Shown here in pieces: positions 1,005 through 37,992 of a stretch of DNA of 38,664 nt. The notes beneath the pieces were generated by a model. That model was not told where the DNA came from. It did not search any database and saw only the letters and a list, made by a program, of their open reading frames with translations. This stretch comes from a virus, in IMG/VR virus record IMGVR_UViG_3300038701_002453, positions 1-38,664 of that record, one strand, 5' to 3'. Position 1 is the stretch's first letter, and each line of letters begins with the position of its first letter. The translations under genes and the position numbers were made by a program.

Positions 1005-1630
1005 TGAGACTAATTAACTGCGAGCAAAATTCACAAGAATGGCTAGACGCAAAGCTTGGGGTATTAAGTGCCTCGAACTTTGGAAAGCTTTTGACTGCTA
1101 AAGGTGCAATTTCAAAAGGGGCAACGCCTGAAACTTTAATCCACCAACTAGCAGCGGAGAGAATCACTGGTGAGAGCGAAGACACTTTCACGGGAAGTTA
1201 TTGGACTGAAAGAGGGCATGAACTAGAGCCAAAAGCAGTGGCTTATTTTGAATTCATCACAGGTAAGTCAATGGAAAAGGCAGGGTTTATCTTGGATAAG
1301 TCAGGTCTTTGTGGTTGCTCTCCTGACAGGTTTAATCCTGAGTCGCTAGAAGGCTTGGAGATTAAGTGCCCTGCGGGGAAAAAACACCTTCAGACCGTTG
1401 AGGCAGGGGTATTGCCGGAAGAACATAAGGCGCAAGTTCAGGGCTGCATGATGGTCACTGGCGCAAAGTCTTGGTGGTTTATGTCTTACCATCCAGCATT
1501 TGAGAAGCAGTTAATTTTGGAAGTCAAAAGAGATCAGGAATATATCGACGTCTTAACAGATGCAATCATGCTTGCGGCTAACAAGATTAAAAAACTCACA
1601 GACAAATATCAGATTAAAAAATCAGCATAA
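1004..1630 (+). CDS. YqaJ/lambda Exo-type 5'-3' exonuclease
   Basis: The 208-aa protein has the layout of the YqaJ viral recombinase family, PD-(D/E)XK exonucleases that resect double-stranded DNA to expose strands for the annealing protein. The N-terminal LGVLSASNFGKLL block is typical. Metal-site candidates follow in order: Glu in ERGHELEPKAV (about residue 73), Asp in CSPDRF (about 107), the E-x-K of LEIKCP (about 118-120), and Gln in HKAQVQG (about 146). The gene overlaps the ERF gene by 1-4 bases (ATGA) and should be translated with it. Length is normal for the family. Confidence 0.88.
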   Translation: MRLINCEQNSQEWLDAKLGVLSASNFGKLLTAKGAISKGATPETLIHQLAAERITGESEDTFTGSYWTERGHELEPKAVAYFEFITGKSMEKAGFILDKSGLCGCSPDRFNPESLEGLEIKCPAGKKHLQTVEAGVLPEEHKAQVQGCMMVTGAKSWWFMSYHPAFEKQLILEVKRDQEYIDVLTDAIMLAANKIKKLTDKYQIKKSA

Positions 1631-1649
1631 CAACCTTGAGGGAGGGGAT

Positions 1650-2087
1650 ATGGAAAGTTTAGTTATTATTTACATGGGTGTATCAAGCCTGAGCATCCTA
1701 ATTAGCGGAATGGCTTTATTAATCGCATTTTCTAACGGGAACAAGCTCAGAGAGTTAACGAAAGAAAAGCCGGAAATTAAAGTGGTTATTCCGAAGGAGA
1801 AGAGGGAGTTAACCGCAAAAAAGAACCGCAAGAAAAGAAGGGCAAAGAAGAAAAACGGCAAGAATTTCAAGGAGTATGTGAGGATTACGCCAGAGATCGC
1901 CAAAACAGTAATCTCTTTAAAAGATGCTGGCGTTTCCAATGGAGAGATATCCAAATCTCAAAATATTTCGAAAGCATCGGTCTATAACATCGTCAGTGGC
2001 AAGCACAGTATCGTGGCGAATAAGCACAAGGCACTTTTTGATCACGTCGACAGAATCAGTGAATCACAAACGAGATTGTTGAACTAA
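1650..2087 (+). CDS. Membrane-anchored HTH protein
   Basis: The start at ATG 1650 is set by a strong GGAGGGG site at 1641-1647; an upstream in-frame extension would run into the exonuclease gene. The 145-aa product opens with one hydrophobic segment (about residues 3-27), then a very basic linker rich in KK and RR (about 50-72), then a helix-turn-helix-like domain. The C-terminal part, ITPEIAKTVISLKDAGVSNGEISK followed by ISKASVYNIVSGKH, resembles resolvase or transposase-type HTHs in which a recognition helix follows SKASVYN. The combination suggests a DNA-binding protein tethered to the inner membrane. Its role is unknown. The last codons overlap the promoter-like element at 2079-2107. Confidence 0.72.
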   Translation: MESLVIIYMGVSSLSILISGMALLIAFSNGNKLRELTKEKPEIKVVIPKEKRELTAKKNRKKRRAKKKNGKNFKEYVRITPEIAKTVISLKDAGVSNGEISKSQNISKASVYNIVSGKHSIVANKHKALFDHVDRISESQTRLLN

Positions 2088-2107
2088 ATAATGAATAAAA
2101 GTATAAT
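2079..2107 (+). promoter_or_regulatory. Sigma70-type promoter for the replication gene
   Basis: TTGAAC at 2079-2084 and a perfect TATAAT at 2102-2107 are separated by exactly 17 bp. The predicted start is near 2114, giving a leader of about 120 nt before the replication initiator. The -35 hexamer is the same TTGAAC seen in the immunity switch at 37754. I see no other promoter of this quality in the early region. Confidence 0.6.
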
Positions 2108-2210
2108 GAATAAGATTCAAATAGTCGGGGGTTCTCCCCTTGACTCCTTGGTGGGTGGCGGTCGTCATATGCGTGTTAGCCGCTGCCCACTTCATACAAT
2201 CTTATTCGTT
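2105..2210 (+). other. Three-stem structured leader (candidate ncRNA or regulatory RNA/DNA element)
   Basis: Three nested or adjacent inverted repeats fit one three-way junction. P1 pairs 2105-2117 with 2198-2210 (13 bp, one G-U; its 10-bp core GAATAAGATT is perfect). P2 pairs 2123-2131 with 2137-2145 (9 bp, two G-U, 5-nt loop). P3 pairs 2151-2161 with 2180-2190 (11 bp, two G-U, 18-nt loop). No long reading frame covers it. The wobble pairs favour an RNA structure. The 5' half of P1 straddles the predicted transcription start, so only four P1 pairs would be in a transcript from the 2079 promoter; the full stem would need readthrough RNA, or P1 may be a DNA operator. Confidence 0.6.
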
Positions 2211-2236
2211 TAACCTCGAAGGACATGAGGCTTGAA

Positions 2237-3103
2237 ATGGCGAAGAGATTTTACGATACAAATATATTCAGCAGCCCATGGTTCAGCGAACTAAGCCCTA
2301 AGATGAAATGCTTATGGTGGTGGATGCTTTGCGAATGTTCACATGCAGGGATTTTAGAAAAACCAAATTTTAGACTTGCATCATTCCAGATCGGAGAGAC
2401 GACAAGCCTCGAAGAATTCAGAAATGTTTTCGAATCTAAAATAGTTGAAGTCAAAAAAGACGTTTTTTTCATACCTAATTTTTTGAAGCGACAGTATCCC
2501 ACAGGATTGAATTCAAAAAAACCAGTTATTGTTTCAGTGTTAAAGGAATTGAAAGCCCATAGGCTGATTTTAACAACAAAACAAATACTTGGAGAAGATT
2601 TTATTAATCATTCAATAATGGGTAGTGAATCATTAGGTAATGATTGCATAATTATTAAGGATAAAGATAAGGATAAGGTTAAGGATAAAGATAAGGATAA
2701 TAATAAAATAGAGAAAAATTCCAAATTCTTTTCTCCTGACGAAATCGTTGATCTTTACAACAAGGTAATTGCCCCCCTAGAGGGAGCTTCTAAGGCTTCG
2801 GCTATGACTGGTCGCTCAAGGAATAAGCTTTTCAAGGGTGATGAAAAAAACAATCCACCGCTAATGAAGCGCTTAAAAGTTCGCGAAGATTGGGTTCAGT
2901 ATTTCAACGCCGTTATCGAGTCCAAACAGCTTCATGGTAATGAAAAAGGTAGGTGGCGCGACTTCTCGCTAAGCCTAACTTTTCTTTGCGATTATGACAC
3001 CTTTTTGCGCGTCTCAGACGGTGAATATAAAATCAAAGAATCAAGCGAACTCAATGAAGATCAAAAAGCTGCACTTGCAAAAAGTGTAGAGGTTGGATTT
3101 TAG
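2237..3103 (+). CDS. Phage replication initiator (winged-helix, DnaD/lambda O-like)
   Basis: The 288-aa product has an N-terminal winged-helix-like domain (FYDTNIFSSPWFSELSPKMK, then a Trp-rich helix) as in phage replisome organisers. A very charged Lys-Asp linker follows (about residues 140-158), then a C-terminal domain with DEIVDLYNKVIAPL, REDWVQYFNAVIES and WRDFSLSLTFLCDYDTFLRV, a pattern common at the C-terminus of phage initiator and helicase-loading proteins. ATG 2237 is chosen over ATG 2225 because GAGG at 2227-2230 is correctly spaced for it, while the GAAGGA site almost touches 2225. The repeats coding for the linker are a candidate origin. The next gene probably supplies a loader or partner. 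Confidence 0.75.
   Translation: MAKRFYDTNIFSSPWFSELSPKMKCLWWWMLCECSHAGILEKPNFRLASFQIGETTSLEEFRNVFESKIVEVKKDVFFIPNFLKRQYPTGLNSKKPVIVSVLKELKAHRLILTTKQILGEDFINHSIMGSESLGNDCIIIKDKDKDKVKDKDKDNNKIEKNSKFFSPDEIVDLYNKVIAPLEGASKASAMTGRSRNKLFKGDEKNNPPLMKRLKVREDWVQYFNAVIESKQLHGNEKGRWRDFSLSLTFLCDYDTFLRVSDGEYKIKESSELNEDQKAALAKSVEVGF
2657..2698 (+). repeat. Hexanucleotide repeat in the initiator gene (candidate replication origin)
   Basis: Seven tandem hexamers AAGGAT/AAAGAT/AAGGTT occupy 42 bp. They are arranged symmetrically: the 18-bp trio AAGGAT-AAAGAT-AAGGAT occurs at 2657-2674 and 2681-2698 around one AAGGTT. A run rich in A and T follows (2699-2720). Lambda and other phages place iterons and an AT-rich unwinding region inside the initiator gene in the same way. 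The repeat could also exist only to encode the KDKD linker. Confidence 0.5.
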
Positions 3104-3104
3104 C

Positions 3105-3626
3105 ATGATGAGTACGATCGAGTTCGACAGCGCATTGTTAATTCTCAAACAAAGATTTGGTGAAAATAAATACCCACCAGCTTTGACGGGATTGCTTTAT
3201 GCGAAATTCAAAAACGTAAGCCTTAGAGATTTTCAAAAAGTCTGCAATCTTCTTGCGGCTTCTGAAAAGTTTGCTCCTGTTTACCCTCAAATGAACGTGC
3301 ATCTAGCTGAAAAAATCCGCGAATACCGAGAGGCTAAACGTGAGCAGAAAAAGAAAAGCTCAGGAGTGGTTTGCACTTATTGCAATAACTCGGGAGTAAT
3401 TCATTTTCTCGAAGAGTGGGGAAGTGCTGAAGTCGCTGGAAAGTGCTGGTGCGAGTTCGGTGAAGAAGCCGAAGGTATGCCCTTGATGAATCGTGAGCGA
3501 GCAGTTGAAGGTCTTGCTTTTGATAAGAAGATCAGAGCCGAGAAAGCGAAAGAAGCAGAATTAAATATCAACAAAGAAAAACTAGCGAGAAGGGAATCGC
3601 TTTTAAAGTTAGTGGAGGACAAATGA
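3105..3626 (+). CDS. Replication-associated zinc-motif protein (possible helicase loader/G39P-like)
   Basis: The roughly 173-aa protein has an N-terminal helical region of about 80 residues (FDSALLILKQRFGENKYPPA, then LRDFQKVCNLLAAS) reminiscent of phage helicase-loading or inhibitor proteins of the G39P type. A basic linker (KREQKKKSS) leads to a zinc-ribbon-like motif with VCTYCNNSG and GKCWCEFG (four cysteines), and a charged C-terminal helix ends it. ATG 3105 or 3108 are the likely starts after AGAGG at 3088-3092; a TTG at 3093 is also in frame. The position immediately after the initiator supports a replication role. The loader assignment is an inference from position and weak resemblance. 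Confidence 0.6.
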   Translation: MMSTIEFDSALLILKQRFGENKYPPALTGLLYAKFKNVSLRDFQKVCNLLAASEKFAPVYPQMNVHLAEKIREYREAKREQKKKSSGVVCTYCNNSGVIHFLEEWGSAEVAGKCWCEFGEEAEGMPLMNRERAVEGLAFDKKIRAEKAKEAELNINKEKLARRESLLKLVEDK

Positions 3627-3829
3627 AAAAGATCAATAACCCTCAACAGTACCGAATCTTGTACATAGACCAAGACGGAAATCAGGTCTACATGAGGAAC
3701 TTGCCAAAGAAAAACAAAGAGACTTCTTGCGGAAAGGTTTTAAAGCGCAGGGAGATAGAAAAGAATTATGACTACGTTGGGATAGTTGACTCAAAAGGGG
3801 AGATCATGGGAGCGAGGTGGATTAAATGA
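3623..3829 (+). CDS. Hypothetical protein, 68 aa
   Basis: A small basic protein of unknown function. Its ATG overlaps the previous TGA (ATGA), with GGAGG at 3614-3618 as the ribosome-binding site, and its own end overlaps the next ATG at 3826. The sequence has short beta-like stretches (YRILYIDQDGNQVYMRNLP, then YVGIVDSKGEIMGARWIK), which suggest a compact beta-rich fold. It is the first member of the long small-gene array. Confidence 0.75.
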   Translation: MKKINNPQQYRILYIDQDGNQVYMRNLPKKNKETSCGKVLKRREIEKNYDYVGIVDSKGEIMGARWIK

Positions 3830-4173
3830 GCAATAAAGAAAGAGAAATTCAAGCAATCAAGTCAATGACTGACCTTGACCAGTGGGATAAGAAAAACCTG
3901 ATTAGTAAAATAGTCGAAAGAAAGGATGATGTTTTAAATGTAACCACTTTGGAAGTTGAAAAATACAAAATCGATAAGATGATAGAAGCCGGCTTGATTA
4001 AGCAGCCAACTTTTGACCAGCAAGAAAAGCGCAACCTGCTAAATCGAATTATTGACACGTTTCAAAACTCGAAAGCTAGATACATGTATATCGCAACTCT
4101 CGTCTTCATAGTCACGCTTTTCAATTCAAGCAACTTTTGGAAATACATGATGGAGAAACTAAATGAGCAATAA
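3826..4173 (+). CDS. C-terminally membrane-anchored hypothetical protein, 115 aa
   Basis: The first ~85 residues are charged and probably helical. A single hydrophobic segment, MYIATLVFIVTLF, lies near residues 88-101 and is followed by a short tail, so this looks like a tail-anchored inner-membrane protein. The soluble domain has two similar pieces: TDLDQWDKKNLISKIVERKDD and TFDQQEKRNLLNRIIDTFQNS share a D-x-x-[DE]-K-[KR]-N-L-[IL]-x-[KR]-I pattern, suggesting an internal repeat. Function unknown. It overlaps both neighbours. Confidence 0.72.
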   Translation: MSNKEREIQAIKSMTDLDQWDKKNLISKIVERKDDVLNVTTLEVEKYKIDKMIEAGLIKQPTFDQQEKRNLLNRIIDTFQNSKARYMYIATLVFIVTLFNSSNFWKYMMEKLNEQ

Positions 4174-11929: not shown

Positions 11930-11959
11930 TTTACAACGTCCGTAATAATTGCGTATCAT
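11930..11959 (+). promoter_or_regulatory. Possible promoter for the RusA operon
   Basis: TTTACA at 11930-11935 and TATCAT at 11954-11959 are 18 bp apart. This lies just after two terminators and 42 bp before the RusA start, where a new promoter is needed. Confidence 0.4.
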
Positions 11960-12000
11960 TGTCTAGGGTTAGGCGTTTTTCTTTTTCCAACAGGAAAGAG

Positions 12001-12405
12001 ATGAAGCTTATTTATTCAGCAAATTTACCAGTAAGACCGCAGTCAAAGCAGTCTACTCGTTTTTTCAACGACAAAAATAACGGAAAATTAAGGTCATGCA
12101 CTGACCCCAAAAAAGCCAACTATGTCAGGACTCTTTCTAATCTCGCAAGGGTTCACAAGAAAAACGCTAAGAGCGAAAAACCTCTGGCGTTAACCGTCAC
12201 TTTTAAATTCAAGCATTCAAAGAAAAGAGGCTACAGAGCAGCGGGTGCTGATCTTGATAATTTATTAAAGCCTCTCAAAGATTCCATGAACAAAATTATC
12301 TATAAAGACGACAAGCAGATCGTCAGCGTCATGGCGTCCAAGTTTTATTCAGAAGAAGATTCAATAGAAGTTTTAATTCACGAGTTGCCGAGGGAGGGTA
12401 AATGA
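12001..12405 (+). CDS. rusA: RusA-type Holliday junction resolvase
   Basis: The 134-aa protein matches the RusA family, dimeric nucleases that cut four-way DNA junctions during phage recombination. The catalytic block is clear: GADLDNLLKPLKDSMN gives Asp84, Asp86 and Lys90, and IIYKDDKQIVS gives Asp103/Asp104, with spacings close to E. coli RusA (D70, D72, K76, D91). The N-terminal LIYSANLPVRPQSKQSTR and C-terminal EDSIEVLI also fit. ATG 12001 is chosen because CAGGAAAGAG precedes it; an upstream TTG at 11959 overlaps the promoter. It overlaps the lipoprotein gene (ATGA). Confidence 0.88.
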   Translation: MKLIYSANLPVRPQSKQSTRFFNDKNNGKLRSCTDPKKANYVRTLSNLARVHKKNAKSEKPLALTVTFKFKHSKKRGYRAAGADLDNLLKPLKDSMNKIIYKDDKQIVSVMASKFYSEEDSIEVLIHELPREGK

Positions 12406-12629
12406 AATACTTGCTTTTAGTTTTATTTTTAGTTTCATGTTCGGGTTCAAATGAGCATGGGGAATGTGTTGGGTTTAGTGATGGAGACAGGGATCCAAGG
12501 CTGGAATACGAGGTCAGTACACGGAACGCAATTTGGTCGTTCATTGGGGTAGAGACAATCATCGCTCCGGTTTTATGGGCTACGGACTACGCTTATTGCC
12601 CTGTTGGTTTAAAGGATGTTCATGAATAG
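12402..12629 (+). CDS. Small lipoprotein, 75 aa
   Basis: The N-terminus MKYLLLVLFLVSCSGSN is a lipoprotein signal peptide with an LVSC lipobox, so the mature protein would begin at Cys13 and be about 63 aa. Ser at +2 suggests outer-membrane sorting. The mature part has a hydrophobic stretch (AIWSFIGVETIIAPVLWATD) similar in style to small YceK/YidQ-like lipoproteins. Expressed with early or middle genes, it could block superinfection or act in lysis; neither is shown. GAGGGAGG precedes its ATG. Confidence 0.72.
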   Translation: MKYLLLVLFLVSCSGSNEHGECVGFSDGDRDPRLEYEVSTRNAIWSFIGVETIIAPVLWATDYAYCPVGLKDVHE

Positions 12630-12948
12630 CGCCTTTGATGTTTACAAGGTTGAAGACTGTGAATATGACGGCGTTTTAAAAGACCACGTGGTTAAAAAGC
12701 TATCCCTTGTTGATCAAATAGAGCCCAAGTCCAAACATGGAAAGTCGATCATGAAGTGCATGAGAGAAGGCTTGTTTTGCATCCCTGAGTACAAGTTTGT
12801 TAAGTCTGGGAAAAACAAGGGAAAAAATAAGGGCTGCGGTTGGAAGATTTGCAGAGAGATGGAAGACCTTGGCGAGTTGAGGATAGTAACAGAGAGGACA
12901 AGAGTTCCTAAGTATATTTTGAGAGAGGTTTGCGTTGACCAAGATTAA
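12622..12948 (+). CDS. Hypothetical protein, 108 aa
   Basis: ATG 12622 is preferred over an upstream in-frame codon because AAAGGA at 12611-12616 is correctly spaced. The protein has several cysteines and a Lys-Gly-rich loop (KSGKNKGKNKGCGWK) followed by a helical LGELRIVTERTRVPKYILRE. The C-terminal half could be a small winged-helix-like domain. Function unknown; its place between RusA and the zinc and HNH genes resembles the nin region of lambdoid phages. Confidence 0.68.
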   Translation: MNSAFDVYKVEDCEYDGVLKDHVVKKLSLVDQIEPKSKHGKSIMKCMREGLFCIPEYKFVKSGKNKGKNKGCGWKICREMEDLGELRIVTERTRVPKYILREVCVDQD

Positions 12949-13144
12949 GCTTTGCAAAACGTGCAGAAAACTAAAATCATTTGCAGGCTTCTCGGAGTGT
13001 GAAGATTGCCGCATTTTCGCTGAGATGACTGACGTTCTTGTGAAGGAAATGAAGCAGGAAAACGAGATGCTTGCAGATTTACCAGAGAAGAAAGGGAATC
13101 TTTCAAAGTATGAGAAGGTGTTTTTTAGAGTGAGGGTTAAATGA
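12935..13144 (+). CDS. Small zinc-motif protein, 69 aa, TTG start
   Basis: The frame opens at TTG 12935 after GAGAGG. C-K-T-C (residues 7-10) and C-E-D-C (22-25) form a four-cysteine zinc knuckle with KLKSFAGFSE between them; a charged helix follows. It may bind nucleic acid. It overlaps both neighbours. Confidence 0.65.
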   Translation: MTKIKLCKTCRKLKSFAGFSECEDCRIFAEMTDVLVKEMKQENEMLADLPEKKGNLSKYEKVFFRVRVK

Positions 13145-13494
13145 GCCACTGTTTTATCCACTACTGTAAAGGCTCAATGATCGACCGCTGCCATATTATC
13201 TCAAGAGGCGCAGGTGGCAGTGACGAGGATTGGAACATTTTAAAAATGTGTAGGCAGCATCACCGATTGCAACATGATATGGGCTGGCGGCGATTCTCGA
13301 TCAAGTTTCCCGAGATCTCAAGAGAGTTAAAGCACAGGCGTTTTGAAATCTGCCCTATTCGCAACAAATGGATCATGCCCAGAAAAGAGATAGAGAAAAA
13401 AGTCGAGGAACGCAAGGACGCAGAGATTGTTGAGTTTGTTCCCGAGGAGATAATATTACTCGAAGAATGGGAGGAAAGACTTGATAGGAGTTAG
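13141..13494 (+). CDS. HNH-family nuclease (NinG-region type)
   Basis: The 117-aa protein has an HNH motif: CHIISRGAGGSDEDWNIL holds His18 and Asn32, and CRQHHRLQH holds Cys37, His40, His41 and His45. The DRCHIISRGAGGSD block is typical of small phage HNH proteins in recombination gene clusters near RusA. The C-terminal 50 residues are charged and probably helical. It is more likely a junction- or end-processing nuclease than a homing enzyme, from its context. Confidence 0.75.
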   Translation: MSHCFIHYCKGSMIDRCHIISRGAGGSDEDWNILKMCRQHHRLQHDMGWRRFSIKFPEISRELKHRRFEICPIRNKWIMPRKEIEKKVEERKDAEIVEFVPEEIILLEEWEERLDRS

Positions 13495-13735
13495 GGATTT
13501 AGTCGAAGCCAAGGAATACAGGGAAGTGATAATCAACGAATACACGTTTAGAAACGTGCTTAACTTTGAAGACTTCGACGGGAGAAAGGTTGTCGCAACC
13601 ACTCACGAAGAGTCTGATTTCAGAGCGTTTGCATATTATCCCAATCTTGGCGAGAGAAAGGACGCTGTAACGAGAGTAATTTTAGAATATATCGAATGGA
13701 AAAGGGGAGAAGATGGAGAGGAAGAAGTCGCATGA
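13481..13735 (+). CDS. Hypothetical protein, 84 aa, TTG start
   Basis: TTG 13481 follows GGGAGGAAAG at 13470-13479, which is strong enough to accept the weak codon. The product is acidic (VIINEYTFRNVLNFEDFDGR, then ATTHEESDFRAF) with no known motif. It overlaps the HNH gene by 14 bases and the next gene by 23. Confidence 0.62.
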   Translation: MIGVRDLVEAKEYREVIINEYTFRNVLNFEDFDGRKVVATTHEESDFRAFAYYPNLGERKDAVTRVILEYIEWKRGEDGEEEVA

Positions 13736-14084
13736 TAGTAAGTCATTAAAAGAAAAGCTTGCTAACGCTCATTTAGTAATTGGCGAGCTGGAAAAAAGAA
13801 ACGAGGAACTTGAAGCTCAGATAGAAGATAAAAAGCACGACGTGGAACTTGAAAAGATCAAGGCACGGTTAGCGGAAGTTTTTGAATCGGAAGATCAAGC
13901 CGAGGTCATGGCGAATTTTCTCATTCACAGAAACAACTTGCTAGACAACTTTAGGCTCGCATATATGGCTGAAATGGAGCTTTTGCCTAGTCAGGTTAAA
14001 TTGGTGCAACGAGAAAACGAACACGGTGAAATAGAGCTGTTTTTTGATAAGAATAGCAAAATTATAACTGAGATAAGGGGGTAG
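13713..14084 (+). CDS. Coiled-coil hypothetical protein, 123 aa
   Basis: Residues about 5-55 are a long charged coiled coil (LKEKLANAHLVIGELEKRNE onward), followed by a helical, more globular part (FESEDQAEVMANFLIHRNNL) and a beta-like tail. Function unknown. ATG 13713 follows GGGGAGA. Confidence 0.7.
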   Translation: MERKKSHDSKSLKEKLANAHLVIGELEKRNEELEAQIEDKKHDVELEKIKARLAEVFESEDQAEVMANFLIHRNNLLDNFRLAYMAEMELLPSQVKLVQRENEHGEIELFFDKNSKIITEIRG

Positions 14085-14086
14085 TC

Positions 14087-14317
14087 GTGGAGAAGGAAAG
14101 CAAGAGATTACTGACCCAAACCCTTGAGTATGTGGACGGTGCGGGAGACATATCCCTTGATATTTTGAATGGATATATAAACGAAAACTTAAACAACTTT
14201 GACGTTTCCGAATTGGTTAAACTCAACGCTTATATCACCGCTATTTCACAGGTTATGAAAGGTGTGATTGATAGAGAGTCAGTGGCTGAGGGTAAAAGAA
14301 TTAAGGAGGCAAGATGA
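14087..14317 (+). CDS. Hypothetical helical protein, 76 aa, GTG start
   Basis: GTG 14087 follows AAGGGGG at 14077-14083. The product is predicted to be all-helical (SLDILNGYINENLNNFDVSE, then LVKLNAYITAISQVMKGVID). No family recognised. Its stop overlaps ATG 14314. Confidence 0.66.
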   Translation: MEKESKRLLTQTLEYVDGAGDISLDILNGYINENLNNFDVSELVKLNAYITAISQVMKGVIDRESVAEGKRIKEAR

Positions 14318-14583
14318 GCAACCACCAAGAAGCCCTAGAAAAGCAAAACAAGTATCTACTTGCCGAAAACACTAAACTCCACGCTGAGGTTAATCACTGG
14401 AAGAACTACGCTGTGGAGTTTGAAAAGAAGGCTCTGGTTAAGCTGCAAAAGCTTACAGAGGGCGCGAATAAGCATCAAAAAAAGCTTGCTAAGGAAATGG
14501 TTGAACAGAAATTAATAGGGAAGAAAAGCCCTGTGTATAAAGTATTGGTGGAGAAGCTGCCGTTTAAGATAAAAATAGGTTAA
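14314..14583 (+). CDS. Coiled-coil hypothetical protein, 89 aa
   Basis: A basic protein with an N-terminal coiled coil (NKYLLAENTKLHAEVNHWKN) and a Lys-rich C-terminal half. AAGGAGG at 14304-14310 is a strong ribosome-binding site. Function unknown. Confidence 0.68.
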   Translation: MSNHQEALEKQNKYLLAENTKLHAEVNHWKNYAVEFEKKALVKLQKLTEGANKHQKKLAKEMVEQKLIGKKSPVYKVLVEKLPFKIKIG

Positions 14584-14598
14584 GCAAAGGGAGTAAGC

Positions 14599-14835
14599 AT
14601 GGAGATAGAACAGTTAAAACTAATAGTAGAACTACTAAAAGGAGTAACCAACGGAGCGCTGGCAGGGGCAATCCTATACCTAGTCCTTCCGGTAATTCAA
14701 GCAGTAATTAAATGGGGGTTAATGACTTTTGTAATTCTAAAAATCGGTAAACTTATTAGTGATTTTCAGACCAAGAAAATTGAGAAGATAAACAAATTAG
14801 CAGATGAGGTGATCATTGTTGCGAACGAAAAATAG
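14599..14835 (+). CDS. Small membrane protein, 78 aa
   Basis: One long or two closely spaced hydrophobic segments (GALAGAILYLVLPVIQAVIK, then GLMTFVILKIGKLI) precede a charged C-terminal helix. It resembles small phage membrane proteins of unknown role and could be a second holin-like protein, though it lies far from the lysis genes. AAAGGGAG at 14586-14593 is the ribosome-binding site. Confidence 0.65.
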   Translation: MEIEQLKLIVELLKGVTNGALAGAILYLVLPVIQAVIKWGLMTFVILKIGKLISDFQTKKIEKINKLADEVIIVANEK

Positions 14836-15031
14836 ATACAAGATCAAATTGCTTAAAAGCGGAGAATACACAGCTAGGCTTAAATGGACATTTTTATACT
14901 TAAATAGGGATGGAAACCTTGGGCTTCCTGCTTATGGGCAAGAGATGGAGTTGAGAAGGATTTTAAGTTTTTTTGATAAAAGAGTTTCAGTGTACGGTTA
15001 TAACAAATCAATCAAAAGAGTAAAGCTTTAA
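14816..15031 (+). CDS. Basic hypothetical protein, 71 aa, TTG start
   Basis: TTG 14816 lies within the previous gene (20-base overlap) after GATGAGGTG. The protein is very basic (RTKNRYKIKLLKSGEYTARL) with a short aromatic segment. No family recognised. The start is the weakest part of the call. Confidence 0.58.
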   Translation: MLRTKNRYKIKLLKSGEYTARLKWTFLYLNRDGNLGLPAYGQEMELRRILSFFDKRVSVYGYNKSIKRVKL

Positions 15032-15042
15032 AAGGAGTAAGT

Positions 15043-15363
15043 ATGAATATTGAATTCAAGAGTGCCAGAGAAGAGATTGAGAGAAGTGTTAAGGCAGCTG
15101 CTATTGCAGTTGTTTGTGAGATGGATTTTAAAGAGCTGATCAACAAAGAGATTGAGGAAATGAAAAAAGACTACAGAGGTGATAACTTGGGATGGATTAT
15201 TAGAGATGAAACAAAAAAGGCAGTCAGGGAGTCAGTGAGAGGTGAAGTTCTAAAGATCGTAAAAGATAAAAAGAGAATTGCCGATGTGTCGCAGTCTGTA
15301 GAGGACGCATTTCAGGACGCAGTAGATATAACAGTTGGAAGATTATCAAGGAGTGGAAAATGA
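15043..15363 (+). CDS. Hypothetical helical protein, 106 aa
   Basis: A charged helical protein (EFKSAREEIERSVKAAAIAV, then DRTKKAV-like and LKIVKDKKRIADVSQSVEDA) with no catalytic motif. AAAGGAG at 15031-15037 precedes the ATG. It could be a small scaffold or adaptor; nothing identifies a partner. Confidence 0.68.
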   Translation: MNIEFKSAREEIERSVKAAAIAVVCEMDFKELINKEIEEMKKDYRGDNLGWIIRDETKKAVRESVRGEVLKIVKDKKRIADVSQSVEDAFQDAVDITVGRLSRSGK

Positions 15364-15536
15364 ATATTTGTTTTGTGATTTTATTAGCAATGGAGGTTCT
15401 AGGACTTGGAATAGTTTTAGCCAGACATGGACAACGCAGAGAAAACTATAGCTTTTGGGTTACTTTCACATCGTCCGCGTTAATATGGGCTTTGTATTGG
15501 GGAGCTGGGTTCTTTGACTTGCTTATTGTAAATTAA
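15360..15536 (+). CDS. Two-span membrane protein, 58 aa
   Basis: ATG 15360 overlaps the previous TGA. The protein has two hydrophobic segments (about residues 3-21 and 33-57) around a short polar loop containing ARHGQRRENYSFW. The pattern LGxGIxLAxHGxxRExYxFW followed by an aromatic second span recurs in small phage membrane proteins of unknown function. Both ends are probably outside the cytoplasm or both inside. Confidence 0.7.
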   Translation: MNICFVILLAMEVLGLGIVLARHGQRRENYSFWVTFTSSALIWALYWGAGFFDLLIVN

Positions 15537-15549
15537 GAGAGGTTTAATA

Positions 15550-15864
15550 ATGAAAATATCGGAAGCATTTAAGGTTATTGAAGACGGGGGAAAGATTGAG
15601 GTTATCAGGTGGGACATAAGAGTGCTTTTAGTTGTCGCCACAACAGAAGAATGTCTAATGAAGGCTATTCTTAAATACAGAGATGAGGGGGTAGGAGTGA
15701 TATTAATGAAGCCCGTTGAGAGGAAAAAATTCTCCTTTTTTGAGATACAAAAAGCACTTCTAAAGTCTCTTCCTCAATGGACTTACTATGAAAAGAACTT
15801 CCCGCCTGTGAATACAGGGCTAGACATGGAAGGTTTTAAAAAAGAACTCGGGTTCAAGGAGTAG
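15550..15864 (+). CDS. Hypothetical protein, 104 aa
   Basis: The N-terminus, KISEAFKVIEDGGKIEVIRWD, resembles the start of small phage DUF2829-like proteins (K-I-S-E-A-L-x-x-x-x-x-G-K-x-I-x-R-x-x-W), but the rest is not a clear match. The C-terminal part (FSFFEIQKALLKSLPQWTYY) is helical. AGAGAGGT precedes the ATG. Function unknown. Confidence 0.65.
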   Translation: MKISEAFKVIEDGGKIEVIRWDIRVLLVVATTEECLMKAILKYRDEGVGVILMKPVERKKFSFFEIQKALLKSLPQWTYYEKNFPPVNTGLDMEGFKKELGFKE

Positions 15865-15866
15865 GG

Positions 15867-16181
15867 GTGATTAATATTTCAAAAGGTGATGTTTTTACAG
15901 TGTCTAAAGGTATTTATTCAGCATTCAGAGTGGTTGGAATCTACATTGCGCTAAAAGACTTTGACTTGGCGTTTACGCAAAGAGAGTTCGAGGCGTGCGC
16001 TTCACCCCGTCGCCGCACGAGCAGGGGTAGCTTCTTGAATTACTTGATAAACCACAACTTTGTAAACCTAATCTCAGGAGGCGATTTATATCTTGGAGAG
16101 CGTTCCTTGGAGGCAGTTTACTTGAAAGATGCGTGGCATGGCTTTGATGATAATTTTGCACCTAAAGAGACGGAGAAATGA
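15867..16181 (+). CDS. Hypothetical protein, 104 aa, GTG start
   Basis: GTG 15867 follows AAGGAG at 15856-15861 two bases after the previous stop. The sequence has a basic loop (CASPRRRTSRGSF) and a beta-like N-terminus. No family recognised. Its stop overlaps ATG 16178. Confidence 0.65.
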   Translation: MINISKGDVFTVSKGIYSAFRVVGIYIALKDFDLAFTQREFEACASPRRRTSRGSFLNYLINHNFVNLISGGDLYLGERSLEAVYLKDAWHGFDDNFAPKETEK

Positions 16182-16414
16182 GCGATTTAAAAGGTCTTTC
16201 AGTGGATGCGGTGGTTTATGATGAATATACGGATGAGTCGATAACCTTTGAGCCTATGTGGAACTTGCGTTTTTCAGAAGTGACAAACCAAGGCTTCGAA
16301 TGTGACGAACTTTATATTCCACCAAGCGCGAGGAAAAAGCTTTCGGCTCAACTGGGGTTTAAGAGAAAAGATAGCTTGAGCTTGAAGTCGTTTTTAAAGA
16401 GGGTTAAGAAATGA
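16178..16414 (+). CDS. Hypothetical protein, 78 aa, ending in LxLKxFxKR motif
   Basis: A small acidic protein with a basic tail, LSLKSFLKRVKK. The same short motif ends the next gene (LTLKQFVKRLRK) and begins the third (LNLKQFFKRYVK), so these three genes share a movable piece of sequence at their junctions. Function unknown. Confidence 0.68.
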   Translation: MSDLKGLSVDAVVYDEYTDESITFEPMWNLRFSEVTNQGFECDELYIPPSARKKLSAQLGFKRKDSLSLKSFLKRVKK

Positions 16415-16629
16415 GCAACGATTTAATAAGGTACGGATTTCACGACCTTCCAAAAAGTAAAAATGGAGTAAAAGCAGCTGCTGACCTTGCCCTCACAGTG
16501 GAATGCGAGTTGATTGTTTTTTCTCCCAAGGTTAGCCGGGTAATAGACCATTTATTCTCGGGAAAGCCTTTTCCTGTTTATAGAAACACCCTTACCTTGA
16601 AGCAGTTTGTTAAAAGGTTAAGAAAATGA
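16411..16629 (+). CDS. Hypothetical protein, 72 aa, ending in LxLKxFxKR motif
   Basis: A small protein (GVKAAADLALTVECELIVFS) with tail LTLKQFVKRLRK. The 16381-16419 and 16596-16634 junctions are close in DNA as well as in protein. The stop overlaps ATG 16626. Confidence 0.68.
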   Translation: MSNDLIRYGFHDLPKSKNGVKAAADLALTVECELIVFSPKVSRVIDHLFSGKPFPVYRNTLTLKQFVKRLRK

Positions 16630-16778
16630 GCAACACTTTAAATCTAAAGCAGTTTTTTAAGCGATACGTTAAGGTAAAGAAGCCTTTACTTAAAACAGAA
16701 GCGACTGCCATTTCTGGTAGAAGATATCTTGACTCTTTAAGGGTCACTTTTAGAGGTAGGGTTATTAGCTTTGACTGA
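16626..16778 (+). CDS. Basic hypothetical protein, 50 aa
   Basis: ATG 16626 overlaps the previous TGA, with AAAAGGTTAAG upstream. The peptide is very basic and begins MSNTLNLKQFFKRYVK, carrying the shared motif at its N-terminus instead of its C-terminus. It may be the truncated last member of the group. It is the last gene before the late promoter. Confidence 0.6.
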   Translation: MSNTLNLKQFFKRYVKVKKPLLKTEATAISGRRYLDSLRVTFRGRVISFD

Positions 16779-16800
16779 TAGCCCAAACGGTGTTTTTTGT

Positions 16801-16829
16801 TTTACCCAGATAAATTAACTTAATATAAT
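16801..16829 (+). promoter_or_regulatory. Probable late promoter (pR'-like)
   Basis: TTTACC at 16801-16806 and a perfect TATAAT at 16824-16829 are 17 bp apart. The predicted start is near 16836. It is the best promoter in front of the head genes, and a strong terminator lies only about 80 nt downstream, as in lambda pR'-tR'. Confidence 0.65.
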
Positions 16830-16835
16830 TAAAAC

Positions 16836-16916
16836 TCGCCTCCTGCGGGTGAACTCCTTTAAGCGTGTTGGTAGCTTACTATTTAAGCCCTCGTATTAAT
16901 TTACGGGGGCTTTTTT
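16836..16916 (+). ncRNA. Predicted ~80-nt terminated leader RNA
   Basis: A transcript from the 16801-16829 promoter would end at the terminator 16886-16916. It contains a small stem near its 5' end (ACTCGC with GCGGGT, about 16834-16850, one wobble) and no reading frame of note. In lambda the equivalent 6S RNA is made until Q permits readthrough into the late genes. The RNA is inferred from its two ends only. Confidence 0.5.
16886..16916 (+). terminator. Strong intrinsic terminator before the late operon
   Basis: AGCCCTCGTA at 16886-16895 pairs with TACGGGGGCT at 16902-16911 (10 bp, one U-G) around TTAATT, followed by a T-run to 16916. Confidence 0.88.
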
Positions 16917-17115
16917 GTTTACGCGGCATAGTTCGACTTGCTAGTATAAGGCAATGCAAATGATCTAAGTCCTGGTTGCGCTTCTTGCAGCCGGGATATT
17001 ATCTCAAAAAATTAATTTGGTTTACGCACGCATCAATCCAACTCAGAATTGAATAAAGAGGAACACGAAGCTCCTCGTAAGGCCTTACATTTTTAGTCAA
17101 ATAACAGGAGTGGTT
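16917..17115 (+). other. Structured late leader without a gene
   Basis: About 200 bp with no convincing reading frame. It holds an 11-bp hairpin (16969-16979 with 16987-16997, three wobbles, 7-nt loop), two mutually exclusive small stems at 17058-17078, and a perfect 12-bp palindrome GTAAGGCCTTAC at 17077-17088 just before the small terminase. A weak second promoter is possible (TTTACG 16918-16923, TAGTAT 16942-16947, 18 bp apart). Terminase recognition sites commonly lie near here, but none can be assigned. Confidence 0.5.
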
Positions 17116-17541
17116 ATGGGCGCAGGCAGACCTACAAAGTACAAGAAAGAGTATTGTGAATTGATTATTGAACACATGGCACAGGGGCTTAGCAAGATGT
17201 CATTTGCGGCTGTTGTTGGTTGTGGAGTTAGAACTATATACGAGTGGGAAGAAGCCCATGAGGAATTTTCGCACGCTATTAAGGAAGGTGAAGCACTTTC
17301 TATGATGCACTTTGAGAAAGTTATTCAGTCGCACAGGCTTGGAACGCCCTTGATAGAAGGGCTTGACCTTGAAAACTCCAAGCCTAGTTGTGCAATATTC
17401 CCGCTCAAGACACGACATCATAAATACTACGGTGATAAGTCCAAGGTTGATTTAAGCAATGAAGACGGCTCTATGAAGCCTGCTCAGGTGACTATAACTA
17501 TTCCTTCTAATGGGAAAGAGGTTAAGGAAGATGAGAACTAG
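17116..17541 (+). CDS. terS: Terminase small subunit
   Basis: The 141-aa protein begins GAGRPTKYKKEYCELIIEHM, the hallmark of many phage small terminases, followed by a helix-turn-helix (GLSKMSFAAVVGCGVRTIYE, then WEEAHEEF). The remainder (AIKEGEALSMMHFEKVIQ) is the usual helical oligomerisation region. It should bind the packaging site and recruit the large subunit. ATG 17116 is used because AGGAG at 17106-17110 is five bases upstream; a GTG at 17110 overlaps that site. Confidence 0.85.
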   Translation: MGAGRPTKYKKEYCELIIEHMAQGLSKMSFAAVVGCGVRTIYEWEEAHEEFSHAIKEGEALSMMHFEKVIQSHRLGTPLIEGLDLENSKPSCAIFPLKTRHHKYYGDKSKVDLSNEDGSMKPAQVTITIPSNGKEVKEDEN

Positions 17542-17749
17542 CAAGATTAAGTATGAAGTAAAGATTTTGCCTAAGGATCACGGCAATCAGTCTATGGATG
17601 ATATTCCTTGGCGAGAGTGTTCCTATTTGCCAGAGATAGAAGATGGTTTTTTGCATATGCCTGTTTACGCAAAAGGGGAGCTTCCCAATATTGTATGTGT
17701 AAACCTAGACGAGATCTCTTGCTATCAGTATAGGGCTGTCTATGAGTAA
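17531..17749 (+). CDS. Hypothetical protein, 72 aa, between terminase genes
   Basis: ATG 17531 after AAGGAAG gives a small beta-rich protein (TSKIKYEVKILPKDHGNQSM, then WRECSYLP). It overlaps the small terminase by 11 bases and the next gene by 8. No family recognised. Small genes between terS and terL are common and mostly of unknown role. Confidence 0.66.
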   Translation: MRTSKIKYEVKILPKDHGNQSMDDIPWRECSYLPEIEDGFLHMPVYAKGELPNIVCVNLDEISCYQYRAVYE

Positions 17750-17930
17750 CTCAGGCACACTAATGACCACAGTCAAAGTCAATAAAGATTGGGTTGTCTA
17801 TGAACTCCCAGATGGTCGAGAGATCAGGGTAATGGTTGTCAGAAGCAATGGAAAGATAAGGCTTAAAAGTGAAGCTCCTAGAGATATTAATATAACCGCT
17901 GAGCTTGATGAGAGTTTTGGCAATAGATAA
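17742..17930 (+). CDS. CsrA/RsmA-like small protein, 62 aa
   Basis: Residues 25-55 (GREIRVMVVRSNGKIRLKSE, then APRDINITAEL) follow the CsrA core pattern G-x-x-I-x-V-x-V ... G-x-[VI]-R-[IL]-x-x-x-A-P-[KR]-[DE]-[VI]-x-[VI]-x-x-E. CsrA dimers bind GGA motifs in mRNA leaders and control translation. The N-terminal L-x-L-[ST]-R-[KR] strand is not recognisable, and the usual RNA-contacting Arg of the HREE motif is Thr-Ala here, so RNA binding may be altered. It overlaps the large terminase start by one base. It could regulate late mRNAs or bind host CsrA targets. Confidence 0.5.
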   Translation: MSNSGTLMTTVKVNKDWVVYELPDGREIRVMVVRSNGKIRLKSEAPRDINITAELDESFGNR

Positions 17931-19372
17931 TGGAAATCAAGCCACAAGAAGGCCCGCAATCTGAGTTCCTAGCATCTAAGGCTGATATTGCGATTTATGG
18001 CGGGAGCGCTGGTGGAGGTAAGACCTTTGGAATGCTCATAGACCCTCTAAGACATATCCAGTCATGCCCTAATGGCGGTGCGGTTTATTTCAGAAGAACA
18101 ACAACTAATATTACAAACGAAGGTGGTCTTTGGGATAACGCTGTAGAGCTGTACTCAAAGGTCGGGGCAAAATCGAGAGAGGGTAATAAGTTAGATATTA
18201 CTTTTCCTCATCCGACCAAACCTAAAGGTAAGGGATTTAAAATAACCTTCGCTCACTTGCAACATGAAAAAGACAAGTTTGGCTATCAAGGTGCGCAGAT
18301 TCCAATATTGTACTTTGACGAGCTTACTCATTTTACACGAACACAGTTTTTCTATCTCCAATCGCGAAATAGATCGGTGTGCGGTATCACTCCATACACC
18401 AGAGCGACATGCAACCCTGAGAAGAATTCTTGGGTAAGAGATTTCATTGATTGGTGGATTGATGAAGATGGGTGGGCAATTCCTGAGCGTTCAGGTGTTC
18501 TTAGATGGTTGATTGTTTATGAGGATAAAGATCATTGGTTTGATACTAGAGAAGAAGCTGTGCAGGCGTTTGCGCATCTTAAAATGCAACCTATCAGCGT
18601 GACGTTTATCCTTTCAAGGCTAAAGGATAATAAAATCCTCAACGAAAAAGACCCAAGTTATAGAGCTAAGTTAATGTCGATGAATAAAGTCGACAGGATG
18701 AAGTTATTAGGCGACGAGGAAAAAGGCGGTAATTGGAATATCGTTCCAAGTGCAGGGATGTATTTTAAAAAGCATTACTTTGAAGAGCTGGACACACTTC
18801 CAGTATTCACAGAAGTAGTTAGGTTCTGGGATAGAGCGGCTACCGAGTGGAAGGAAGGGGATTCAGGGGATCCCGATTATACAGTTGGTTTCAAAATGGG
18901 GAAAACCAGATCAGGTGAGTTTTATATACTTGATATTATTAGAGAAAGATTAAGTGCAGGGAAAGTAGACCAGTTAATCCTCAATACTGCAAAACAAGAC
19001 GGGCAAGGTGTTGTCGTCGGTATCTTTCAAGACCCAGGAGGAGCAGGGAAAAACGAAGCCGAGGCAATGGTTAAAATGCTTGCCGGTTTTCAAGTCTACG
19101 TCGACAAAGTCACTAAAGATAAAATAACTCTCGCTAAAACATTCAGCTCGCAGTCAGAGCATGGAAACGTGAAAATGTACGCTTTCTGTCGCAAGAAAGA
19201 GGACTTCTATGCAGAAGCAGAAAACTTCCCAGACGATAATCACGACGACATTATTGACGGCGGCTCAGGTGCGTTCAACTACCTCAATAGAGACAATATA
19301 GGAGCGTTCACGGCTGACTACATCCAAGAGTCACGTGACGAGTCAGCTCCAAGGTACGCGGATACGTGGTGA
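17930..19372 (+). CDS. terL: Terminase large subunit
   Basis: The 480-aa protein is the packaging motor. The ATPase has Walker A GGSAGGGKT (residues 24-32) and Walker B ILYFDE (Asp130, Glu131). The C-terminal RNase H-like nuclease includes RFWDRAA with Asp301, an aspartate in IFQDPGG (about 365), and NFPDDNHDDIIDGGSGAFNY (about 430-450). Length and domain order are normal. It translocates DNA into the prohead at the portal and cuts concatemers with the small subunit. Confidence 0.95.
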   Translation: MEIKPQEGPQSEFLASKADIAIYGGSAGGGKTFGMLIDPLRHIQSCPNGGAVYFRRTTTNITNEGGLWDNAVELYSKVGAKSREGNKLDITFPHPTKPKGKGFKITFAHLQHEKDKFGYQGAQIPILYFDELTHFTRTQFFYLQSRNRSVCGITPYTRATCNPEKNSWVRDFIDWWIDEDGWAIPERSGVLRWLIVYEDKDHWFDTREEAVQAFAHLKMQPISVTFILSRLKDNKILNEKDPSYRAKLMSMNKVDRMKLLGDEEKGGNWNIVPSAGMYFKKHYFEELDTLPVFTEVVRFWDRAATEWKEGDSGDPDYTVGFKMGKTRSGEFYILDIIRERLSAGKVDQLILNTAKQDGQGVVVGIFQDPGGAGKNEAEAMVKMLAGFQVYVDKVTKDKITLAKTFSSQSEHGNVKMYAFCRKKEDFYAEAENFPDDNHDDIIDGGSGAFNYLNRDNIGAFTADYIQESRDESAPRYADTW

Positions 19373-26421: not shown

Positions 26422-27306
26422 ATGGCATTAAGTAACCCAAGATCAATTTTCGGCATCGCTTCGGTGGCGCCGTATAACATTAACTCTAAGGAATTTTACG
26501 GAATGCTTAGAGTTTTAGAAAACTCAAGTCTTGCTGTAACAGGTGAGCAAATCGCATTACAAGGTGGATCCAACCGCTTTGACTGGTCATCTGAAACAGG
26601 TGCTATCACTGCGGAAATGAGCCTAAATTTTTCTGAATATCCAAACTTTGTTTTTGAGTTATTCGCTGGAAATGCGCCAACACTTAACGCTGCGGAAGCA
26701 AGCGGTAGCGTAACGACACCGGTTGCCGGTACAGGTTCACTTATCAATGCCTCAACGGGTGTTGCAAGTGTAACGATTGAATCAGGCGAAGAAGACGAGC
26801 TTAAATTTGGTCACTATGTAATCAAGGCAGCTTCTGCGACAACTGTTGATGTTTATTTTTCTTCTCAAGTTGATATTGGAAGAGGAACGAATGGAGAATT
26901 TCTAAACGACGCTATGAAAGTTGTGTCAACGCTAACTGTAACCGACTCAGGCGGAACTACTTCAATCACTGGATATGGATTAGAAATCACAGGCGGCTCT
27001 GGAACAGTTGCATTGACTTCTGGTGACACGATTTCATTCAGTGTAAGACCGCCTAACAGTGAGTCTACAGACGTTGTTGTGGGTCGCTTAGCTGACCAAA
27101 ACTGGCCAGAATTTGGAGCCATTATCATGGCAGCTCAACAATCAGACGGGCAAATGATCGAGATCGACGCTTACAGGTGTAAAGCAGCCGGTCTTCCAAT
27201 CGGTCTTGCAAGAAACGCATATTCGCCAGCAGAGGTGACGGTAAAGATGCTTTACGATTCAACTCGTGACGGAGTTTATGCACTAAGACACGTTAAACCT
27301 AGCTAG
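26422..27306 (+). CDS. Major tail tube protein
   Basis: The 294-aa protein is in the expected position and has a tail-tube pattern: N-terminal RSIFGIASVAPYNINSKEFY, a central Gly/Thr/Ser-rich insertion (about residues 110-215) that could be an Ig-like domain on the tail surface, and a C-terminal FGAIIMAAQQSDGQMIEIDA, RCKAAGLPIGLARNAYSPAE. A strong terminator follows. Confidence 0.78.
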   Translation: MALSNPRSIFGIASVAPYNINSKEFYGMLRVLENSSLAVTGEQIALQGGSNRFDWSSETGAITAEMSLNFSEYPNFVFELFAGNAPTLNAAEASGSVTTPVAGTGSLINASTGVASVTIESGEEDELKFGHYVIKAASATTVDVYFSSQVDIGRGTNGEFLNDAMKVVSTLTVTDSGGTTSITGYGLEITGGSGTVALTSGDTISFSVRPPNSESTDVVVGRLADQNWPEFGAIIMAAQQSDGQMIEIDAYRCKAAGLPIGLARNAYSPAEVTVKMLYDSTRDGVYALRHVKPS

Positions 27307-27339
27307 AAAGTCCTCCCCTTAGTTCACTTTCTAACTGTT

Positions 27340-27368
27340 GGGGGAGGCTTCGGCTTCCCCCTCTTTTT
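27340..27368 (+). terminator. Strong terminator with UUCG loop after the tail tube gene
   Basis: 27340-27348 pairs with 27353-27361 (9 bp, one G-U) around a TTCG tetraloop, then T-C-TTTTT. The upstream CCTCCCC at 27312-27318 could instead pair with the 5' arm, so an alternative non-terminating fold exists. Confidence 0.85.
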
Positions 27369-27425
27369 GTATACGTGTGGAAGGGAACTAATTAGCCTTT
27401 TATTAATGAATAACAAAGGGGAAAC

Positions 27426-27851
27426 ATGGATTTAAACAGCATAAAACCCAAAGAATCGAATTTCTATTTAAGAATCACAAATAAAACCTACACGATGAGA
27501 CCTATTACAATGGCCGACGAGCAATGGCTTGAGCGCACCTATGGTCAGAAGCAAATGCAAGACATTTTCGAAAAGCTCAACCTTATAGAGATCGCAAGAA
27601 TTGTCTATAGATTGCTCGTTAATGAGGACAAAGAAAGCTTTAAAAAGCAAACGGTTAGATTTGTAAATGAAGATGGAGACGAGGAAACAGAAGAGCTGGG
27701 TGGATACAAGCTTCTTATATCCCTTGTTTCTGGGTGGGAAGAAAAGATAGCACTAACAAATGCGCTACTTGAAAACATGGGCTTTTCAAGACCACTAGAC
27801 CCTAAAGATAAACCAGAGGAAGAGGAAGGCGAAGAAAAAAAAAGCCAATAG
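27426..27851 (+). CDS. Tail assembly chaperone, zero-frame product
   Basis: The 141-aa protein corresponds to lambda gpG-type chaperones. It lies between tail tube and tape measure and ends in an acidic, Lys-rich tail (PEEEEGEEKKSQ). Near its 3' end an A9 run (27835-27843) allows a -1 frameshift that would extend it with the 27842-28126 frame. AAAGGGG precedes the ATG. Confidence 0.82.
   Translation: MDLNSIKPKESNFYLRITNKTYTMRPITMADEQWLERTYGQKQMQDIFEKLNLIEIARIVYRLLVNEDKESFKKQTVRFVNEDGDEETEELGGYKLLISLVSGWEEKIALTNALLENMGFSRPLDPKDKPEEEEGEEKKSQ
27836..27842 (+). promoter_or_regulatory. -1 ribosomal frameshift site (A-AAA-AAA)
   Basis: In the zero frame the codons are GAA-AAA-AAA-AGC. Slipping back one base on A-AAA-AAA lets both tRNA-Lys re-pair and continues with AAG-CCA into the downstream frame, which is open from here to 28126. 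The A9 run also permits other slips. Confidence 0.78.
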
Positions 27852-37789: not shown

Positions 37790-37992
37790 TGTTAAACACA
37801 CAGCTTATAAAAATTGGATTCATTAAGACCGGCAAGACGCAAATAGGGTTTGCCAGAGAGTTTGGTTACAACCAAAGCACCGTTAATCAGTACATACATA
37901 ACGAGCGCACGGCTAAACCTAAATTCCTTAAAGAATTATCAATCTATATAAGCATCCCAATAGAACAAATGATTCTATTGGACGCTGCATAA
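37789..37992 (+). CDS. Cro-like HTH regulator
   Basis: The 67-aa protein has a helix-turn-helix at about residues 5-60: LIKIGFIKTGKTQIGFAREF, GYNQSTVNQYIHNERTAKPK, with ELSIYISIPIEQM. The short length and divergent position make it the Cro counterpart that starts the lytic programme. An ATG at 37783 is also in frame; 37789 is preferred because a promoter with -10 near 37777-37782 would start the mRNA at this codon, giving a leaderless message. Neither has a ribosome-binding site. Confidence 0.75.
   Translation: MLNTQLIKIGFIKTGKTQIGFAREFGYNQSTVNQYIHNERTAKPKFLKELSIYISIPIEQMILLDAA

Follow-up and report, generated by a model that had tools for sequence, protein, structure and literature searches.

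To our knowledge, the antiterminators lambda Q, 21 Q, AlpA and GafZ do the same job with no common sequence, so that antiterminators are not findable by homology alone. In the late unit of P22, the phage in which gp23 is the Q protein, the promoter occupies positions 37852-37880, the transcript starts at 37887 and the terminator lies at 37917-37945, that is, from +31. The -10-like element of the sigma-dependent pause used by Q sits at the start of the lambda and P22 late leaders (PMC6606751, PMC4604602). In Pseudomonas aeruginosa, the terminator tB begins at +54 from the alpB promoter and is bypassed by AlpA, a protein with no sequence similarity to Q; taking tB away raises expression about 28-fold (PMC7969949). 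The structural cluster of the Caulobacter GTA likewise needs an antiterminator, GafY/GafZ, to be transcribed past an intra-cluster terminator (PMC11150451). Furthermore, termination at the promoter-proximal terminator of a pR'-tR' unit can yield a functional short RNA, as shown for StxS (PMC7873438).

We analyzed the linear IMG/VR virus record IMGVR_UViG_3300038701_002453 over its full 38,664 nt, hereafter called the window. Among its genes are cI-like repressor genes and one resembling an integrase gene, from which we judge the phage to be probably temperate. The top match of its large terminase in phage records has 47% identity, its integrase has a single, weak phage match, and a prophage-based host search with the terminase and capsid as queries against a bacterial genome collection found no relative. 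The final small early gene stops at 16778 and is followed on the same strand by the genes for the small terminase subunit (terS), large terminase, portal, capsid, tail and amidase. An AGGAG sequence at 17106-17110 makes the ATG at 17116 the best start of terS. The promoter-leader-terminator unit described below thus stands before the head, tail and lysis genes, as the earlier note had claimed, and its features are collected in Table 1 with those of its surroundings.

Table 1. Features at and around the early/late junction of the window, with the second strong terminator
Feature	Position	Strand	Basis or remark
Small conserved gene	13713..14084	+	Upstream of packaging genes in L008, L010 and L118
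Small conserved gene	14314..14583	+	Also in L008, L010 and L118; in L118 it directly precedes the leader
Three last early genes	16178-16414, 16411-16629, 16626-16778	+	Tandem relatives; basic LKxFxKR motif
Sigma70-type late promoter, TTTACC-17-TATAAT	16801..16829	+	10/12 consensus bases
Predicted short leader RNA, about 80-85 nt	16834..16918	+	Inferred from promoter and terminator; fold
5' hairpin, ACTCGC-CTCCT-GCGGGT	16834..16850	+	Fold; no -10-like hexamer
Intrinsic terminator, 11-bp stem (16885-16912) and T-run	16885..16921	+	Hairpin scan, fold
9-bp inverted repeat CCTGGTTGC/GCAGCCGGG and adjoining TATTAT (16997-17002)	16971..17002	+	Sequence
Small terminase subunit gene (terS), first late gene	17116..17541	+	Start ATG 17116 chosen from AGGAG spacing
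Large terminase subunit gene	17930..19372	+	Query used to find relatives
Second strong terminator, flanked by the major tail gene and the tail gene after it	27340..27361	+	Hairpin scan

The promoter proposed in the earlier note is indeed present, with its -35 hexamer at 16801-16806 and its -10 hexamer at 16824-16829, separated by an AT-rich spacer without a clear repeat. Nothing within kilobases of it matches a promoter better, and the whole window has five plus-strand matches of at least 10/12, this one included, with none that reaches 11/12. When the 106-nt gap between the stop codon at 16778 and the terminator is shuffled, a 10/12 promoter arises in 1.2% of the shuffles (chance, 0.012). For 9/12 matches the region shows no enrichment (8 seen versus 14 expected), and no plus-strand match of at least 9/12 lies between the 16885 terminator and terS, where the candidates are 8/12 matches at 16918-16947, 16976-17002 and 17021-17049. 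This junction has two features of a lambda-type Q-dependent late promoter: a sigma70 promoter points from the early/late boundary into the late genes, and an intrinsic terminator lies downstream of it, ahead of the first late gene.

The terminator has 6 G-C pairs in its 11-bp stem and a 6-nt loop, followed by TTTTGTTT. With a strong terminator defined by at least 9 pairs, at least 6 of them G-C, and a T-rich tail, the plus strand of the 38,664 bases contains exactly two (16885-16912 and 27340-27361), compared with none in 40 shuffles of the window. A start at 16834-16838, as the promoter predicts, would place the beginning of the stem at about +48 to +52, in keeping with the very strong terminator said to lie some 50 nt past the start, and the predicted RNA agrees in length with the ~80-nt RNA that had been proposed. 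Folded from the likely start to the T-run, this RNA gives -29 kcal/mol (z = -3.5) and contains one good and one weak hairpin before the terminator. A direct DNA search of 50,697 phage records with the window leader gave short chance matches only, no close TerS relative having this leader was found, and Rfam returned nothing at the gathering score for the window and the leaders of its relatives (best weak match, 18.0 bits versus 49.5 required). The one Rfam match obtained was an unrelated int-alpA match in L024. Of note, the terS leader contains an inverted repeat (16971-16995) with a 7-nt loop, which may be an activator site or a structured leader; the TATTAT beside it is part of one of the weak 8/12 promoter candidates.

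The second strong terminator lies within the late run. No promoter of at least 8/12 was found around it (27200-27430). A terminator-like hairpin is kept after the major tail gene in at least L004, L006-L010, L015 and L017, and many relatives carry a small minus-strand gene at this hairpin, whereas the window has the terminator alone. The tail and lysis genes beyond it consequently need read-through or an unrecognised promoter. As read from the sequence, a terminator inside the late run with no recognisable promoter nearby is what a terminator-resistant polymerase would predict; a terminator that leaks, at the cost of lower expression downstream, would fit equally well.

Based on these results, our favored explanation, to which we give a probability of roughly 0.55, is that the 16801 promoter is a late promoter with a promoter-proximal terminator that would be read through by means of a phage factor acting on RNA polymerase. 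When a strong promoter runs directly into a strong terminator ahead of the late genes, these genes can be transcribed from it only if the stop is bypassed. From the promoter, leader, terminators, gene order and recurrence of the architecture, all of which can be seen in the DNA, we infer the efficiency of termination, the factor, its loading site and the processivity of the modified polymerase. According to this model, polymerase would start at 16834-16838 and, without the phage factor, would stop after about 80 nt in nearly every transcript. A factor produced from the early operon would load onto RNA polymerase at the 16801 promoter or its leader, and the modified polymerase would then pass both the 16885 terminator and that at 27340-27361, allowing transcription of the packaging, head, tail and lysis genes.

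Relatives taken from IMG/VR with capsid and terminase profiles bear on this model. The closest one that is readable at the junction, L008 (capsid identity, 74%; terminase identity, 65%), has a TTGACA-18-AATAAT promoter at 2379-2408; no other match in 14.8 kb, both strands included, attains 11/12 (shuffle chance, 0.0024). Downstream of this promoter come a 15-bp terminator at 2448-2481 (fold z, -5.5) and terS at 2559. The early module of L008 is unlike that of the window, and its promoter, leader and terminator come in the same order with unrelated sequence; an architecture kept without its sequence is good evidence for function. In L118 (terminase, 65%), a leader likewise separates the last upstream gene from terS, and a strong but imperfect terminator, missed by our perfect-stem scan and caught by the fold-based scan, occupies the same position as in the window; the upstream promoter of L118 is weak (8/12 at best, with a 15-nt spacer). 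Both L008 (2465-2494) and L118 (1917-1945) also have 9/12 promoters overlapping or just past the terminator. The order is reversed in L104, one of the relatives with terminases of about 51-55% identity (L104, L012-L014 and L134), in which the terminator precedes a TTGAGA-18-TAAAAT promoter (10/12) and then terS. L134 has the leader motif described below and no recognisable terminator, and neither L010 (terminase, 62%) nor L120 has a leader before terS. At the sequence level, the promoter-terminator pair is thus recurrent, not universal, and a clear pair is present in only one relative, L008. A word common to the window and L104 at the -10/start region, AAACTCGC, was discarded, since a longest shared word of this kind has a P of 0.35 (position-specific, 0.003 post hoc), as was TTGTCATGACAA, a candidate shared operator that occurs at chance level in the window.

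Other features of the relatives merit mention in their own right. Just before its packaging genes, L012 carries at 1070-4146 a set of genes that, by eye, resemble those of 7-deazaguanine synthesis (queC, queD, queE and folE types), which suggests DNA base modification. Upstream of the tail-assembly gene, L011, L012 and L014 have TATAAT-like sequences; palindromes come after these, TTGTGATCACA being one, and may act as operators for a separate tail promoter. The early and late genes of L013, L014 and L134 are divergent, and the intergenic sequence upstream of the late run contains CAAnAAATTGAGnnnAAATT, a region where AAATT(GAG) repeats recur at a spacing of about 11 bp and which may be a late activator or promoter element.

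The leaders of some relatives also have a block in common. L008 and L118 have in common ATCCAmGGATGG at the transcript start, and the late leader of L134 has GTCCACGGATGGG. When all viral contigs were searched for exact copies of TCCAmGGATGG with flanks, 15 contigs had it. In three (L008, L118 and L134), all of them large-terminase relatives of the window phage, it lies in the late leader; the other 12 are not late leaders and have the motif mostly inside coding frames. In GenBank records, the late leader of lambda (start 44587) begins AACGATGGGTTAA and that of P22 (annotated start 37887) begins AACGATGGATAAA, from which we built the comparison block CAACGATGGRTWA. L008 matches this block at 12/13 positions, a score reached in 0 of 2000 shuffles, and its element lies at +5 as AAGGAT-GGG; L118 and L134 match at 10/13, with P about 0.04 each. 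The match is a strong lead, not proof, because it was compared after the motif had been noticed and because lambda and P22 share the block, for which reason they count as one example. The window has a best match of 8/13 to the same block (shuffle P, 0.65) and no -10-like hexamer (A2, T6) in its first transcribed bases, and its 5' hairpin occupies the position of the GGATGGG pause-like block of the relatives. Taken together, the leader sequences point to Q-type loading in the group, with the window itself without the signature. We also noted that lambda (44519-44534; L210 820-835) has TTGCCACGGATGGCAA between Q and pR', as does P22 (L213) at the same place. The hairpin core of this sequence, CCACGGATGG, is identical to the motif in the L118 and L134 leaders but lies at about -60, not near the start, and the resemblance may be due to chance.

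Could the late genes be expressed without antitermination? The best rival to our model holds that the terminator just ends the early operon and that an activator-dependent promoter farther downstream drives the late genes, for instance one near the 16971-16995 inverted repeat and its adjoining TATTAT (16997-17002), or TTTACG-18-TAGTAT (16918-16947), the 16801 promoter being weak, incidental or otherwise used. The 8/12 candidates past the terminator in the window, the 9/12 promoters at or after it in L008 and L118 and the terminator-promoter-terS order of L104 would all suit this explanation, but 8/12 matches are common by chance, and in both the window and L008 the best promoter lies upstream of the terminator (chances, 0.012 and 0.0024), a location that would be pointless if read-through never happened. 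An activator also leaves the second terminator at 27340 unaccounted for, and we regard this explanation as rather unlikely.

Three further proposals concern the short RNA itself. The RNA of roughly 80 nt could be a gene product in its own right that acts on other mRNAs, as expected of a compact promoter-terminator unit with a stable fold and as known for the similarly made StxS (PMC7873438). Such a role could coexist with antitermination, yet given no Rfam match at the gathering score and a leader sequence that is not conserved in the relatives, we find it improbable. A 5' hairpin right at the start in the folds of the window, L008 and L118 recalls the HK022 put RNA, an element of ~70 nt with two strong stem-loops (PMC9378689), and would in that case make polymerase resistant with no protein involved. 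The window leader has, however, a single good hairpin and a weak one before the terminator, and a put-type element would always be on, which would make the terminator pointless; protein-free resistance is accordingly very improbable here. We give equally little credence to leader-peptide attenuation, whereby a ribosome on a short open reading frame would block the terminator hairpin. Short frames that enter the terminator from the GGATGG or CGGGTG position do exist in the window, L118 and L008, that of the window extending from GTG 16849 to TAA 16897-16899 (16 amino acids) and ending in the terminator loop; nevertheless, they have no ribosome-binding site, their start codon is no more than about 15 nt from the RNA end, and open frames this short are common by chance.

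Antitermination by a phage factor, the explanation that we prefer, implies that such a factor is encoded among the early genes. Q proteins are widely divergent. The Q families PF03589 and PF06530 have no match in the whole window, and no antitermination family of PHROGs or Pfam was detected among the early proteins scanned (20 window proteins from 11959-19372 were covered by the protein scan for Q families); the search with PF06323, which also returned no match, was uninformative, as no control was detected either. In PDB sequence searches, six candidate queries retrieved no antiterminator. That no Q homologue is recognisable had been stated before, and this holds for the window, which may be incomplete. 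Since neither the pause element nor a Q homologue was found when looked for, we do not place the switch of the window in the Q family.

Among the small early genes, the last three stand out by their position: in lambdoid phages, Q is kept where they sit. They have the LKxFxKR motif at their end or start, a 46-nt direct repeat (16381-16426 and 16596-16641) spans their junctions, and no family match was found for any of them. The families of the 13713 and 14314 genes, of coiled-coil type, co-occur upstream of packaging genes despite unrelated early regions. The modeled 13713 product consists of a long coiled coil and a beta hairpin, with no helix-turn-helix (pLDDT 74), and had no match at an E value of 0.001 or less in a fold search. 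In L010, these two genes form one run with terS with no leader, an arrangement that speaks against a role of either as switch factor in that relative. None of the five genes can be called an antiterminator on present evidence. Gene 12616, which by eye resembled a winged helix, was dismissed because its model is too poor (pLDDT 39). Elsewhere in the window, the protein encoded at 1560-2087 has a possible membrane segment and, after it, a helix-turn-helix of the resolvase type, as judged from weak PHROGs matches; such a combination is unusual in an early phage gene.

The earlier suggestion of a Q-type switch thus stands in part. In its favor are the promoter, leader and terminator that recur in L008, the terminator of L118, the second terminator at 27340 with no recognisable promoter near it, and the pause-like block in the leaders of L008, L118 and L134; against it, the window has neither a pause element nor a Q homologue. 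It is possible, and we offer this tentatively as something we doubt more than we believe, that the phage group has a Q-type late switch with an antiterminator of a new family drawn from the small early genes (e.g., 16178-16778 or 13713/14314), and that the lineage of the window dispenses with the pause element kept in L008, L118 and L134.

A promoter and a terminator within about 50 nt of each other before late genes, recurring with different sequence, can serve to locate where antiterminators act. This approach is usable in uncultured phages, yields DNA segments short enough to test and narrows the candidate genes to a short list.

Compared with described systems, the locus resembles lambda and P22 pR'-tR' in that a sigma70 promoter immediately past the final early genes is followed by a short leader, a strong terminator and the late genes, and an (A)ACGATGGG-like block is found at or near the start in its relatives L008, L118 and L134. 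It differs from them by having no Q homologue and no pause element in the window and in that packaging genes, not lysis genes, come first. Likewise, it shares with alpB the geometry of a promoter and a proximal terminator, but the AlpA motif GGGACG-N5-GGTA (PMC7969949) is absent from 16801-16829, the spacer of which is CAGATAAATTAACTTAA, and the six PDB queries turned up no AlpA-like protein. The intra-cluster terminator of the Caulobacter GTA is comparable to that at 27340; a GafZ-type palindrome between -35 and -10 is absent, and the position of the terminator differs. As for StxS-type RNAs, the likeness lies in a short RNA ended at a promoter-proximal terminator, which here is predicted only. 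By analogy with these systems, we propose that the locus probably operates in the manner of lambda pR'-tR' or of AlpA in P. aeruginosa, and it is a further example of an already known kind of switch.
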